This document shows, in pieces, positions 45,178 to 50,470 of a DNA stretch of 64,000 nucleotides (within the stretch, counting starts at the first letter, position 1; each line of letters begins with the position of its first letter). Origin of the DNA: Pontimicrobium sp. SW4 (GTDB lineage: Bacteria > Bacteroidota > Bacteroidia > Flavobacteriales > Flavobacteriaceae); the NCBI RefSeq assembly GCF_039954625.1, contig NZ_CP157199.1:2728001-2792000 (forward strand). The letters are read 5' to 3'. Made by a program: the position numbers and the translations under genes. The notes below the pieces were generated by a model. That model worked only from the letters and a program-made list of their open reading frames with translations. It did no database searches and was not told where the DNA came from.

Positions 45178-45912
45178 TTATTTAAAATATGATAATAAAT
45201 CTGATTTTTTAGAGGCTGAGACCATAATCTCTTTTCCGTTACTTAACATAACACTCCCTCCTTTTCCTTTTATGTATTTAACAACTTCATTGACATTTAC
45301 CAAGTAACTTTTATGCACTCTAGCAAATCCTGAATCTGTTAACGCATCTTCAAAATACTTAAGCGTTTTACTAACTAGCTTCTTTTTGTTGTTGTTTAAA
45401 TAAATCTCGGTATAATTATCGTCGGCTTTACAATATAAAATATTGGCAGTTTCCAATACCTCAAATCCATCTTGTTGCGGAATAGTTATTTTACCGTTTA
45501 CATTATTTGTTTTAGGAATTAATACTTGGTCTTGCAAAGCGTCTTCTTTCGTTTTAATTTCAACGACGTAATCTACTGCTTTTATAAGTTCGTCAATAGA
45601 AATGGGTTTCATTAAATAATAACTCGCATGTGCATTTAAAGCGTCAATTGCATAATGGTTATAGGCAGTTACAAACACTGTTTCAAAATCTCTATCACCA
45701 ACTTTTTCCAGTAAATCAAATGCATTACCAAATGGCATTTCTACATCTAAAAACACGAGATCTAATTCATTATTTCTTATAAGTAATAACGCTTCGTCAA
45801 CATTAGCAGCTTCGGCTAGCACCTCAACATTAGGACAATATTTTTTAAGATAATTTTTTAAAATTTCTCTGCTTGTTTCTTCGTCTTCTACTATGATAGA
45901 TTTTAGTTTCAT
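45178..45912 (-). CDS. LytTR-family response regulator
   Basis: 244 residues. An N-terminal receiver domain (SIIVEDEETSREIL; phosphoacceptor Asp56 in VFLDVEMP; YLMKP lysine) is joined to a C-terminal LytTR DNA-binding domain (residues about 140-244; ILYCKADDNYTEIYL, FARVHKSYLVNVNEV, LSNGKEIMVSASKK). LytTR proteins bind paired direct repeats about 21 bp apart. The start overlaps the end of the sensor kinase gene by 4 bp (ATGA), so they form one translation unit. A candidate operator of the right geometry is at 48172-48226, ahead of the operon. Confidence 0.94.
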   Translation of the reverse strand: MKLKSIIVEDEETSREILKNYLKKYCPNVEVLAEAANVDEALLLIRNNELDLVFLDVEMPFGNAFDLLEKVGDRDFETVFVTAYNHYAIDALNAHASYYLMKPISIDELIKAVDYVVEIKTKEDALQDQVLIPKTNNVNGKITIPQQDGFEVLETANILYCKADDNYTEIYLNNNKKKLVSKTLKYFEDALTDSGFARVHKSYLVNVNEVVKYIKGKGGSVMLSNGKEIMVSASKKSDLLSYFK

Positions 45913-48077
45913 TTAATCTTTTTTAAGGTTACCACAACTTTAGTTCCTGAATCTTCGGTATCTAAATAATCGTCAATAAATACATCGACTTTATCTTTAT
46001 ACATCTCGTTTAAAATAGCCACACGTTTTTTAATATTCCCCAATCCTTTAGATCTGTGCTTTTTTTGATTTTCGGTTTTCATGGCTTTGGATTTATCGCG
46101 TCCAATACCATCATCTGTGATACTTATTTTTAATTCATCTTTATCGACTTGAGAGATATTGATGTTTAATTGTCCTTTCTCTGTTTTATACCTTAATCCA
46201 TGCCACACAGCATTCTCAATATATGGTTGCAATAACATAGGTGGTATTTGGAACTCGTTTACTTTTACATTCTCATCAATAATAATATCGTAATCAAACT
46301 TATCTTTAAATCTAAAATGCTCTAATTTGGTGTAAAGTTTAAGTAATTCTATTTCCTTTTCTAAGGGAATAAAATCTTCTTCGCTGTTTTCCAATACTGC
46401 GCGCATCAAGAGTGAAAAATCAGATAAATATTTATTAGCAGTACGTTCATCATTGTTTGCGATAAAACTATTAACAGAGTTTAATGCATTAAATATAAAA
46501 TGCGGATTCATTTGACTACGTAGCGATTTTAATGCTAAAAGATTATTATTTAACTTTTGCTGTTTCATGTTTTTTAACATTGAATATACTGCAATAAGCA
46601 ATAACAACAAACCTCCTATTAATGAATAAATAATAAGCTTTTGACGCTTATTTCGCTCTATTGTTAATTGGTATTTACTTTCGGATAATGCACGATCACT
46701 TTCAAGGCTTGTAATACGATTTTGTTTTATTGCTAAATCTTTTGCTAAACGTGCTGCCTGCGATATTTCTTGTTCTTTTTTTATATAAAGCTCGTCTACT
46801 AATCGTTCATAGATTCTTGTTGTTGAAATAGCTTTATCAATATCTCCGTCATCTCTAAAGACTTCAGCAAGTTTTCTAGTAGCATCTTTCTGCACTACTA
46901 AATCTTCCTTGTTATTTGCTTCTTCAATACTCTTTTCAAGGTATTGAATGGCATTAGGAAAATCTTTTTGTATGGCGTACGCACTTCCTATTTTATAATT
47001 CTGTTTTTGAGGCGTAATGGCACTTTCGTTATTAAAAATGGAATCTCTTTCAATATCATTTATTTCAACAAGTGCTTGCTTCCTAAGTTCAATTTCTTTA
47101 CCATATTCTTTATTCTTACTTTCAAAATCAGCAACTTTTACTTTTTCTTCAACTGCTCTTTTTTTGTTTTCTTTGGAAGCAAGTTCAAGAGAGTTTTGAA
47201 AATACCCTTCAGCTTTTTTAATAGCTCCAGAAGCATTATATGCTTCGGCTATTTTTGAATTTAAATCAGTAATTTTGGGAGTTATTAAATGTTTTTGAGC
47301 TACTTGAAGACCTTCCTTGTAAGCATTAATGGCAGCAACAAAATCTTGAGTAACCACATAGACATCTCCTAAACCTTCATAAAGGCTGGTTAATTGCCAA
47401 TTGGATAAATCGTCTTTATTTATTGATAGATATTCATCAATACTTTCCTGATAATTTTCATTGAATTGAAATGATTTAGCAAGTTTTAACCTCACACCAT
47501 TTTCATCAATATTTTGAAGGCTTATTCGGTAATTTGAAATAGCTAAATCATATTGCTTCCACTCGAAATATACATCACCTAAAGTTTCATAAACTTCAGC
47601 ATTTTCTTTTACAGTACTAGATACAGTCAAAGCATCGGTAATAAATTGGATACTTTTTTCTGCATCTTTTTTTAAATAGGTATCTGCAGAATCTATTAAA
47701 GATTTAAAAGCACCAGCATCTCTTTTAGAAATTTTGCTGATAAAGTTTTTTGAGTCATTATGCTCTACCTCAACTCTAATACGCTCGTTATCTTGAATAA
47801 TATAGTAAATGGTTTCAAAATCATTATGTTTTATAATGAGTTCATCACCTTTAGATGCATTAATTTTGAATTCTCCAAGCGAATTAGTGGTAGTATAAGC
47901 ACCTCCATTTACTAGAATATTTACTTTCGGGATAGGTTTATAAGTACTTTTTTCTAACACCGACCCTCTTACTACAAATATTTCTTTTACCGCTTCGTTA
48001 TTTACTTCTTGAGCAAGCATTGAGCTTGAAAACAACAGTACAAGTAGTATAGTAATATGTCGAGCTAGTTTTATCAT
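45909..48077 (-). CDS. LytS-type sensor histidine kinase with beta-sandwich and TPR sensor region
   Basis: 722 residues. A signal peptide (ends MLAQ) is followed by a carboxypeptidase-regulatory-like beta-sandwich (residues about 35-95), then TPR repeats (about 125-430; for example YETLGDVYFEWKQYDLAISNY, SLYEGLGDVYVVTQDFVAAI, AYAIQKDFPNAIQYLEKS) and one membrane helix (481-500). The cytoplasmic His_kinase domain has SQMNPHFIFNALNSV (His526) and HATPase motifs (MLLQPYIENAVWHG, GRD, KGLGNIKKR). The sensing part should be periplasmic. It is co-translated with the LytTR regulator. What it senses is unknown. Confidence 0.92.
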   Translation of the reverse strand: MIKLARHITILLVLLFSSSMLAQEVNNEAVKEIFVVRGSVLEKSTYKPIPKVNILVNGGAYTTTNSLGEFKINASKGDELIIKHNDFETIYYIIQDNERIRVEVEHNDSKNFISKISKRDAGAFKSLIDSADTYLKKDAEKSIQFITDALTVSSTVKENAEVYETLGDVYFEWKQYDLAISNYRISLQNIDENGVRLKLAKSFQFNENYQESIDEYLSINKDDLSNWQLTSLYEGLGDVYVVTQDFVAAINAYKEGLQVAQKHLITPKITDLNSKIAEAYNASGAIKKAEGYFQNSLELASKENKKRAVEEKVKVADFESKNKEYGKEIELRKQALVEINDIERDSIFNNESAITPQKQNYKIGSAYAIQKDFPNAIQYLEKSIEEANNKEDLVVQKDATRKLAEVFRDDGDIDKAISTTRIYERLVDELYIKKEQEISQAARLAKDLAIKQNRITSLESDRALSESKYQLTIERNKRQKLIIYSLIGGLLLLLIAVYSMLKNMKQQKLNNNLLALKSLRSQMNPHFIFNALNSVNSFIANNDERTANKYLSDFSLLMRAVLENSEEDFIPLEKEIELLKLYTKLEHFRFKDKFDYDIIIDENVKVNEFQIPPMLLQPYIENAVWHGLRYKTEKGQLNINISQVDKDELKISITDDGIGRDKSKAMKTENQKKHRSKGLGNIKKRVAILNEMYKDKVDVFIDDYLDTEDSGTKVVVTLKKIK

Positions 48078-48171
48078 TTTTATTTCTTGAAAGGTAAACT
48101 TACATACTTTACTTGGTAAAATAAAATGCCTTTTAGTGTATAAAAGTTAGTTTAACTTACAAATTGACCAC

Positions 48172-48226
48172 TTTACTCATTCAAAAAGTGGCTACACTCA
48201 TTAACCTTTCGTGTTTACTCATTCTG
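48172..48226. promoter_or_regulatory. Triple 21-bp-spaced direct repeat, candidate LytTR operator
   Basis: ACTCATT occurs at 48175, 48196 and 48217, exactly 21 bp apart; copies 1 and 3 share TTTACTCATTC. On the minus strand the unit reads AATGAGTAAA. LytTR-domain regulators are known to bind two or more direct repeats of about 9 bp with a 12-bp spacer, that is a 21-bp period on one helix face. The site lies between the LytS/LytTR operon (start 48077) and the divergent vWA gene (start 48284). Operator function is inference. Confidence 0.6.
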
Positions 48227-48283
48227 GTTTTTTTAGCAAAAAAATTGGTTCTAAGTTTATGTCATCAATAAAAATCGAATATT

Positions 48284-49426
48284 ATGAAAACACTGTTAAA
48301 ACTAGGTTTTACATTGACCTTAATGATTGGCTTTATTACCACAAATGCCACAAACAAACACTATGAGAATCAGAAACCTCATACTGAGAAAAACAAGCAA
48401 TTTATTAAAGTTGCCCTATTATTAGATACTAGTAATAGTATGGATGGATTAATAGACCAGGCAAAAGCGCAACTTTGGAGTATTGTAAATGAGTTGTCGT
48501 ATGCTAAGTGTAATGATGAGCGTCCTAGCCTTCAAATTGCATTATACGAATATGGAAATGACAATTTAAGTTCGCATGAAGGTTATATTAGACAAGTTTT
48601 AGGTTTTACCAACGACTTGGATGATATCTCTAAAGAACTCTTCTCTTTAACAACTAATGGAGGTAGTGAGTTTTGCGGTCAAGTTATTCAATCGTCATTA
48701 AATCAATTAGATTGGGGAAACAACCAAGACGATTTAAAACTCGTTTTTATTGCTGGAAACGAACCATTTAACCAAGGGAAAATCAACTATAAACATGCAG
48801 CAACTAATGCCAATGAAAAAGATGTAACGATTAACACTATTTATTGTGGCAACTATCAACAAGGGGTTTCTACCTTTTGGAAAGATGGTGCTATTCTAAC
48901 CAATGGAGACTATTTAGCTATAGACCATAACCAGAAAACAGTTCATATAGCTTCACCTTATGACGATGCTATTTTAGAGTTAAACAAGAGACTTAACAAC
49001 ACTTATATCGCTTATGGAAAGCGTGGAGCAGCCAAAGTATCTATGCAAATGGCTCAAGATAACGAAGCTGAAAGCTATAGTAAAGCAAATGCAGTAGGCC
49101 GAACGGTTAGTAAAAGCTCGCATTTCTACAAAAATTCAAAATGGGATTTGGTCGATGCTCTTGAAGAAAAAGTTGTTGAAGTGGAAAAATTGGATGATTC
49201 TGCATTACCAGATACATTAAAAGGGAAATCTATAAAAGAAATAAGAGCTTATGTTACTAAAAAAAGTAAAGAGCGATTACAAATTCAAAAAGAAATACAG
49301 GAATTGAATACTAAACGAAGAACCTATATAGCTTCAAAGCAAAAAGACACTAAAAATGGTTTGGAAAATGCTATGATACAAGCCATAAAAACACAAGCGA
49401 AAAAGAAAAATTACCAATGGAATTAA
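48284..49426 (+). CDS. Exported von Willebrand factor A-domain protein
   Basis: 380 residues with a signal peptide (ends about TTNAT). The vWA domain shows the MIDAS motif VALLLDTSNSM (Asp48, Ser50, Ser52) and FIAGNEPF; the middle strand/helix pattern follows to about residue 230. The C-terminal part is lysine- and glutamate-rich, with predicted helices (KGKSIKEIRAYVTKKSKERLQIQK). vWA proteins bind ligands through a divalent metal. It is divergent from the LytS/LytTR operon across the 21-bp repeat array, so it may be controlled by that system. A terminator follows. Confidence 0.85.
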   Translation: MKTLLKLGFTLTLMIGFITTNATNKHYENQKPHTEKNKQFIKVALLLDTSNSMDGLIDQAKAQLWSIVNELSYAKCNDERPSLQIALYEYGNDNLSSHEGYIRQVLGFTNDLDDISKELFSLTTNGGSEFCGQVIQSSLNQLDWGNNQDDLKLVFIAGNEPFNQGKINYKHAATNANEKDVTINTIYCGNYQQGVSTFWKDGAILTNGDYLAIDHNQKTVHIASPYDDAILELNKRLNNTYIAYGKRGAAKVSMQMAQDNEAESYSKANAVGRTVSKSSHFYKNSKWDLVDALEEKVVEVEKLDDSALPDTLKGKSIKEIRAYVTKKSKERLQIQKEIQELNTKRRTYIASKQKDTKNGLENAMIQAIKTQAKKKNYQWN

Positions 49427-49462: not shown

Positions 49463-50470
49463 TTAGTTTATTGCTGGACATTTACATTCGTACTTCTCTC
49501 GCCTACAGCCAAAGTTGATTCCTAACGTGATTTGGTGAAAACCTCCATTATTAAAAACCACTGAGTTTGCTTGATAAGAATACGTATAGGCGAAGACAAA
49601 GTTTTTATAATTAACACCAACTAATGGCGTAATATATTGTAGTTTTTGACTGCTTACGCCTGTGCCATTTAAAAACTCGGCACCATCTAAGCTTGTTCTA
49701 TAGGATAATCCAGCCCAAAACTTTCCAAATTCAACCTCCTTATACACTTTCATGTTTAAGTCTATTAAAGATTCTTTAGTAGCATCACGGTGCATAAACA
49801 TAATAGAAGGTTCGTAACTCCATTCGCTACCTAGACGGCTAAATACATTTCCAGCAGAAAACAAAAAAGTTCTTAAGTTGTTATAACTAAGTCCTTGTTC
49901 GTTAAAATTTATACCATCGTTAGCTAGAACATTCTTGACAGTTGCATGTGCATAGAAGTCTAGAAAGAAATATGAGAACCCAAAATCAATATTAAAATTG
50001 GTCGCACTTTGTTCTATTCCAGAAATAATAGGGTCGAAACCATCAGCTAAAAAAGAAGTTTCATCTAATTTATATTGAATCATTCCTGCGCTTAACCCAA
50101 ATGATAGCATATTTAAATCGATTGGATTTCTAGAAAACATTAAATGGTGTGCATAAGTCAAATAAGCTCCAGTTTGTGAATGATACCCATTTTTATCATT
50201 AAAGACAATGGCTCCATAAGCTGAAGGTGTTTCTCCAAAACGACCATTAACGCTTAACGTTTGTAAACTTGGTGCATTAGATTGCCCTAACCATTGCTGA
50301 CGACCAGTTAACCTTACTTTATTACAATTTGCTGCTCCAGCCATAGATGGGTGGATTAAGTAATAGTTATCTGTTAAGTAATCAGAGTATATTGGCAATC
50401 CTTCTTGTGCTTTGGAAAATTGCGCTAAAAAAAGCACAACGAAGAGTAACGAAAGTTTTTTCAATTTCAT
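49463..50470 (-). CDS. PorP/SprF family type IX secretion system outer-membrane protein
   Basis: 335 residues with a signal peptide ending SKAQ. The family pattern is clear: GLPIYSDYLTDNYYLIHPSMAGAANCNKVRLTGRQQW near the start, barrel strands through the middle and VFAYTYSYQANS ... HQITLGINFGCRR at the end. PorP/SprF proteins are needed for secretion or attachment of T9SS cargo with type B sorting domains. A cargo gene is usually next to the paralogue that serves it; here the nearest type B protein is about 20 kb away (26324). It is a single gene between two strong boundaries. Confidence 0.92.
   Translation of the reverse strand: MKLKKLSLLFVVLFLAQFSKAQEGLPIYSDYLTDNYYLIHPSMAGAANCNKVRLTGRQQWLGQSNAPSLQTLSVNGRFGETPSAYGAIVFNDKNGYHSQTGAYLTYAHHLMFSRNPIDLNMLSFGLSAGMIQYKLDETSFLADGFDPIISGIEQSATNFNIDFGFSYFFLDFYAHATVKNVLANDGINFNEQGLSYNNLRTFLFSAGNVFSRLGSEWSYEPSIMFMHRDATKESLIDLNMKVYKEVEFGKFWAGLSYRTSLDGAEFLNGTGVSSQKLQYITPLVGVNYKNFVFAYTYSYQANSVVFNNGGFHQITLGINFGCRREKYECKCPAIN

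Follow-up and report, generated by a model that had tools for sequence, protein, structure and literature searches.

A conserved three-repeat array beside a LytS/LytTR-type system of Pontimicrobium sp. SW4 is its predicted operator

The window (the whole stretch of Pontimicrobium sp. SW4 DNA that was analyzed, 64,000 nucleotides) contains a short array of direct repeats in the intergenic region between a two-gene operon and a divergently transcribed gene. The features of this locus are as follows; positions relative to transcription refer to the predicted start of the vWA gene.

45178..45912, minus strand: receiver + LytTR response regulator gene, presumed to encode the DNA-binding protein, downstream of HK
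45909..48077, minus strand: sensor histidine kinase gene (HK), TPR + His_kinase + HATPase_c
48172..48181, plus strand: repeat unit 1 (distal), TTTACTCATT, probably about -92 to -83
48193..48202, plus strand: repeat unit 2 (middle), TACACTCATT, probably starting near -71
48214..48223, plus strand: repeat unit 3 (promoter-proximal), TTTACTCATT, probably about -50 to -41; the best conserved copy over CTCATT
48284..49426, plus strand: vWA protein gene, the predicted target, divergent from HK

The start of HK, at 48077, lies 95 bp from the array. Its product matches His_kinase, HATPase_c and several TPR models above the Pfam cut-offs, and CarbopepD_reg_2 below the cut-off (29.1 bits against 32.2; E of 1e-6). 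A His_kinase (PF06580)-type sensor thus adjoins a receiver + LytTR (PF04397) regulator, the pairing by which a LytS/LytTR two-component system is recognized. The N-terminus of the vWA protein resembles, by eye, a signal peptide. Gene calls and Pfam bear out the setting given in an earlier reading made from the sequence only, which had placed the repeats between a LytS/LytTR operon 95 bp away and a vWA gene. A PorP/SprF gene (type IX secretion) is convergent to the vWA gene at 49463-50470, and a PorP/SprF homologue adjoins vWA in 16 of 18 related loci (L003-L020).

Copies of ACTCATT start at 48175, 48196 and 48217, successive starts being exactly 21 bp apart, and copies 1 (48172-48182) and 3 (48214-48224) have the longer core TTTACTCATTC in common; both points agree with the sequence-only reading. 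The exact pair ACTCATT-N14-ACTCATT matched twice in the window, both times inside the array, and never in 100 dinucleotide shuffles. Across the whole genome (3.44 Mb) these two were the only matches, and the reversed control gave none. Written out in full, the unit is 10 nt long (TTnACTCATT) and is followed by an 11-nt spacer to give the 21-bp period. An excerpt of PMC4847170 defines LytTR sites as repeats of 9–11 nt with spacers of 11–13 nt and no common consensus. The array falls within that definition, with which the earlier proposal that a 21-bp period reflects LytTR geometry is also consistent.

Conservation was examined in 149 genomes of the family, each from a different genus, with an E of 1e-50 or better as the criterion for an HK orthologue. 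Orthologues were present in 81 of the 149, and in three of six genomes of the same genus. The regions upstream of 80 orthologues were compared (78 of the 81 family genomes plus two congeners; G015, G122 and G155 were excluded as partial or weak matches). A three-unit pattern with a 21-bp period, trained on these same regions, was found in 79 of the 80; the top score on shuffled regions was 2.8. One of the 79 (L154) scores just 10 and another locus (L155) fails, leaving two of the 80 without a convincing array. When spacing was left free between 11 and 32 bp and anchored on unit 3, 21 bp was picked between units 3 and 2 in 75 of 77 regions and between units 2 and 1 in 68 of 77 (three of the 80 scoring under 20 were omitted). 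In an alignment of 75 sequences, from which five scoring under 25 were omitted, the consensus of units 1, 2 and 3 is TTnACTCAnT, TTCACTCATT and TTnACTCATT, respectively. The spacers are variable apart from AAA immediately after units 1 and 2.

A sequence-only profile (R1) was built from HK-adjacent arrays; its E-values are rough. The second test set consisted of 80 titled loci encoding HK relatives, the best 80 of a longer list, and R1 matched before HK at an E of 6e-6 or better in 65. Once five loci letter-identical to training sequences were removed, 60 of 75 carried the array, a count in which close kin of the training genomes may remain. Winogradskyella, Algibacter, Aquimarina and Maribacter are among the array-bearing loci, and more distant arrays occur in two Bacteroidales assemblies (L426, L427), Reichenbachiella (L439) and a Bacteroidetes assembly (L442). 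The HK gene start, and hence the array distance, is approximate in L436, L439 and L442. A LytTR homologue is encoded in 77 and a vWA protein in 68 of the 80 loci. The 15 loci with no R1 match at 6e-6 are mainly distant relatives or contig ends, and include one Winogradskyella (L422, R1 E of 0.006).

The exact heptamer pair is a weak detector in relatives: it was found in 29 HK-positive and 8 HK-negative genomes, together 37 of the 149 in the family set, and the reversed control was found in 24 of them. The case rests on the conserved positions and the full profile, not on heptamer counts. A pair search allowing two mismatches in the Pontimicrobium genome gave 100 matches against 47 for the control; it was too noisy, and R1 was used instead. 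Head-to-tail arrays of the ACTCATT heptamer, unlike the 21-bp operator, were seen in G007 (L035) and G122 (C22 and C33), with near copies also in G122, so that raw motif counts are inflated. By the sequence-only reading, its proposal would fall if operon-bearing relatives had lost the repeats or their 21-bp period. The relatives do not show this pattern: the array stands in 79 of 80 regions of the trained set and at 60 of 75 non-identical loci, and the spacing was kept. The three-repeat array is a conserved element.

On the vWA side, unit 3 gives way to a T-tract, then to A-rich sequence and finally to a TAnnTTT box.

48228..48234, plus strand: conserved T-tract, consensus TTTTTT, at the site of the expected -33 element, its putative role
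48252..48259, plus strand: TAAGTTTA, vWA promoter -7 box of the flavobacterial TAnnTTTG type, at offset 80 (counted from the array start)

Sigma-A promoters of Bacteroidota also have a -33 element. By eye, no -33 TTG was seen at the expected place, where the T-tract stands instead. Unit 3 ends 28 bp before the -7 box and upstream of the -33 region, and this position, together with the missing -33 TTG, suits an activator-dependent promoter. A TAnnTTT box was found in 65 of the 80 HK loci; relative to the array start, 64 of them have it at an offset of exactly 80 bp and one at 74. By class, it was found in 48 of 52 loci with an adjacent vWA gene; where another ORF takes that place the figure is 13 of 15, and where no divergent ORF was found it is 4 of 13. 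The fixed distance upstream of a promoter that characterizes LytTR operators is thus seen at the HK loci (64 of 80). According to an extract of PMC9723704, the flavobacterial sigma-A -7 box is TAnnTTTG and spans -12 to -5. Flavobacterium sigma-A promoters as described there have a like box; what differs at the present locus is the T-tract at the expected -33 place and the repeat array before it. Taking the -7 box as -12 to -5 would put the vWA transcription start near 48264, 20 bases before the start codon, with the units beginning near -50, -71 and -92.

We consider it likely, with a probability of roughly three in four, that the array is the operator of the adjacent LytS/LytTR-type system, which would activate the vWA gene and a wider regulon and probably also regulate its own operon. 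In the mechanism we envisage, the phosphorylated LytTR protein would bind the units side by side on one face of the DNA and contact RNA polymerase from about -40 to -92. Bound at the array, it would activate vWA and the regulon, and the same array would raise or tune transcription of the HK-LytTR operon in the opposite direction.

The two halves of this prediction differ in support. The sequence-only reading had offered autoregulation, control of the vWA gene, or both; the vWA half is better supported, by the box at a fixed distance on that side, and autoregulation is plausible in light of six loci described below. It is quite possible that the array serves the divergent vWA side alone, and that its nearness to HK reflects a shared intergenic space with no autoregulation. 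The fixed box and T-tract both stand on the vWA side, units elsewhere in these genomes read toward the target gene, and the kinase has a conserved promoter stretch of its own:

48095..48102, minus strand: TAAGTTTA, kinase-promoter box of the -7 type, lying within a conserved stretch at about 48090-48130

In relatives this stretch reads, by eye, roughly ATTTTA..TA..CAAGTAAAGTGCGTAAGTTTA; its conservation was judged from 45 of 68 regions. Against a role confined to vWA, the array stays 90–116 bp from the HK start in six loci (L106, L108, L110, L117, L134 and L150) in which neither a divergent ORF (at least 70 residues, start within 400 bp) nor a box was found. L114 was omitted from this set since its contig ends there, as were L154 and L155, which have no convincing array. 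Moreover, the distance from array to HK start is 89–99 bp in 61 of 77 loci. The six loci and the narrow distance both favor, but do not prove, a function toward the kinase as well, and the array probably autoregulates the HK-LytTR operon.

R1 identified six sites in the Pontimicrobium genome at an E of 5e-5 or better, the next match being at 0.08. Five lie outside the window.

Site before a gene for a 688-residue CarbopepD + Plug + YfbK-type vWA protein
Site before a gene for a 2119-residue alpha-2-macroglobulin with a CarbopepD domain
Site before a gene for a small CarbopepD protein
Site before a gene for a protein with a sub-threshold receiver match
Site in L165 (C1:1934678), before a gene with an interrupted reading frame

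The frame of the last gene is open in a congener (G002, L317). Among the 149 family genomes, 103 have an R1 match at an E of 0.01 or better. A set of 82 distant sites was assembled from the five in Pontimicrobium and 77 others among the matches listed (E to 3.9e-7), away from HK and outside that genome. Their units read toward the target gene. An ORF of at least 70 residues lies downstream of 73 of the 82, and in 62 of the 82 the target ATG follows the site by 10–35 bp, compared with 67 of 1640 random placements. In 43 of the 82 a box stands 38 bp on from where the last unit begins, and in 29 none was found. The free-spacing procedure yielded no unit at 21 bp after the second in 57 of the 82, and not even a second in 20, which suggests that many distant sites are two-unit sites.

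The domain census covered 72 of the 73 ORF products, the Pontimicrobium macroglobulin being omitted; 30 of the 73 ORFs are cut short by the locus end. Raw counts among the 72 were 41 CarbopepD_reg_2, 18 TonB Plug, 14 vWF_A, 7 DUF4139, 7 DUF4140 (the MuiA domains), 4 VIT and 4 TonB_C. Sites in relatives precede genes for CarbopepD/TonB-plug proteins, YfbK-type vWA, MuiA, VIT, macroglobulin and TonB proteins. The earlier suggestion that the repeats would recur upstream of envelope genes was therefore right. Four target proteins are complete.

L462:603-2693, minus strand: MuiA, with CarbopepD_reg_2 + TonB Plug inside DUF4139
L464:429-2504, minus strand: MuiA, with CarbopepD_reg_2 + TonB Plug inside DUF4139
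L463:1384-4698, minus strand: VIT protein, with CarbopepD, Plug and DUF2135
L359:455-2518, minus strand: YfbK-type vWA protein of the Pontimicrobium genome, with CarbopepD_reg_2 + TonB Plug

Pfam found a barrel in none of these four (two MuiA, one VIT, one YfbK-vWA). Full-length matches to the Pontimicrobium YfbK-vWA gene were found solely in the three HK-positive congeners and in none of the HK-negative relatives.

Three of the targets lacking an ORF have a noncoding stretch in common, with a T-rich tail.

L256:354-528, plus strand: candidate structured small RNA, preceded by an operator of this kind
L259:1380-1554, minus strand: candidate structured small RNA, preceded by an operator of this kind
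L283:1430-1596, minus strand: candidate structured small RNA, preceded by an operator of this kind

The candidate has a long closing helix with paired changes and a conserved CTTCTGWTAGT hairpin. The joint fold, which is derived from three sequences only, contains 25 pairs; in 7 of these, both partners have changed in one or more of the three. The whole stretches are more stable than shuffles (z of -3.63, -3.45 and -2.97); a 108-base piece without the 3' arm is no more stable than its shuffles (z of -0.75). Rfam gave nothing above threshold for the six ORF-less targets, and a single match with an E of 0.25 was taken as chance. The loop word occurs in 3 of 461 loci, and a profile of the small RNA (R2) detected no further strong copy in 100 loci.

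Tentatively, these sites would outline an undescribed envelope regulon of the Flavobacteriaceae, and perhaps of Bacteroidota more widely, in which the kinase and the proteins under its control share a CarbopepD-like domain. Its targets would often carry a SusC-type TonB plug with no barrel, set within MuiA, VIT and YfbK-type vWA proteins, and would extend to a CarbopepD-only alpha-2-macroglobulin, a TonB protein and the structured small RNA. The plug modules would couple their carrier proteins to TonB. Taken as a whole, we regard this reading as possible rather than probable.

The sites may instead be the operator of a different or broader regulator, either another LytTR paralogue or an unrelated factor, with the adjacent system as a target or as one user among several. 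We judge this unlikely. Among the matches listed (E to 3.9e-7), 50 of 81 HK-positive genomes have strong distant sites, as against 1 of 68 HK-negative genomes, a comparison made with one genome per genus and uncorrected for kinship. At an E of 0.01 or better, R1 matches 79 of the 81 HK-positive genomes, mostly at the HK-adjacent sites used in training. Matches in 24 of the 68 HK-negative genomes, which favor a different regulator, are weak; the best are in G168 (7e-9) and G062 (5e-6), these E-values being rough. The vWA gene was found in 16 of 37 family genomes, all HK-positive, and HK in just 2 of the other 21; two vWA matches of 21–23% identity were left uncounted.

A further argument for another regulator comes from three congeners (G001, G003 and G004), where sites persist and neither HK, vWA nor a LytTR protein over 37% identity was found; matches to the kinase there are partial. 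At an E of 1e-4 or better these genomes have 1, 4 and 1 sites, respectively, versus 6, 5 and 6 in the three HK-bearing congeners. The macroglobulin site of the HK-less congeners is well kept, and G003 has a strong site (E of 2.9e-10) before a gene unlike the other targets. Their retention of sites means that another factor may also use the site and, with the matches in G062, G168 and the other HK-negative genomes, speaks against a one-to-one link between sites and HK. However, no LytTR paralogue above 34% identity was found in G001 or G003 at an E of 1e-20 or better, and the lower number of sites in the HK-less congeners fits decay after loss. Either decay following recent loss of the system or a second regulator would account for these sites. 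Nine genomes, most having sites but no HK, were searched for a replacement kinase, which gave just partial matches to the C-terminal half in eight, and an alignment by eye for a LytTR paralogue in G003 with matching DNA-contact residues revealed nothing convincing.

The array has counterparts among known LytTR systems. Three-copy operators exist for the LytTR one-component regulators RcoM1 and CoxC (an excerpt of PMC11347149), so the kind of operator proposed here is already known. The likeness lies in three direct repeats at a promoter, spaced by 12–13 bp and bound by a LytTR domain in those systems and predicted to be so bound here. In that account the RcoM1 and CoxC units differ from ours in being 8-bp TTCNNGCA-type repeats, found in proteobacteria at CO oxidation genes. 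In Escherichia coli YpdA/YpdB and staphylococcal AgrA, as described in parts of PMC4847170 and PMC4227749, a receiver-LytTR regulator is likewise combined with direct repeats upstream of a promoter. YpdA is described in the same sources as a LytS-type kinase. Those systems differ in having two units of unrelated sequence and other targets, and the sensor encoded here, unlike theirs, combines TPR repeats with a weak CarbopepD match.

Repression rather than activation by the LytTR protein at these sites seems rather improbable. The precedent for it is CoxC, which represses from three repeats in an operator overlapping -35 (PMC11347149, in the portion concerned). Here, by contrast, the spacing of the proximal unit from the -7 box, its place upstream of -33 and the lack, by eye, of a -33 TTG point away from such an arrangement. 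Chance repeats or a functionless tandem-repeat relic, which the head-to-tail heptamer arrays and near copies in G007 and G122 might call to mind, can be dismissed with near certainty, being refuted by the 0 of 100 shuffles and by conservation over many genera at a fixed period.

The array unit is not known to resemble any LytTR motif, a point against the operator reading, although LytTR sites have no common consensus (PMC4847170). In searches of the open-licence literature we found no description of the unit sequence, the kinase type or the regulon, and nothing relevant on MuiA, macroglobulin, TonB and von Willebrand proteins together. If the activator reading and the proposed regulon are right, they would supply the DNA motif of a LytTR regulator from a phylum where those searches turned up none, and one site would define a regulon common to many flavobacterial genera. 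It would provide the first functional link among orphan envelope families (barrel-less TonB-plug, MuiA, VIT, YfbK and alpha-2-macroglobulin proteins) and would name a regulator common to them, through whose deletion they could be tested together.
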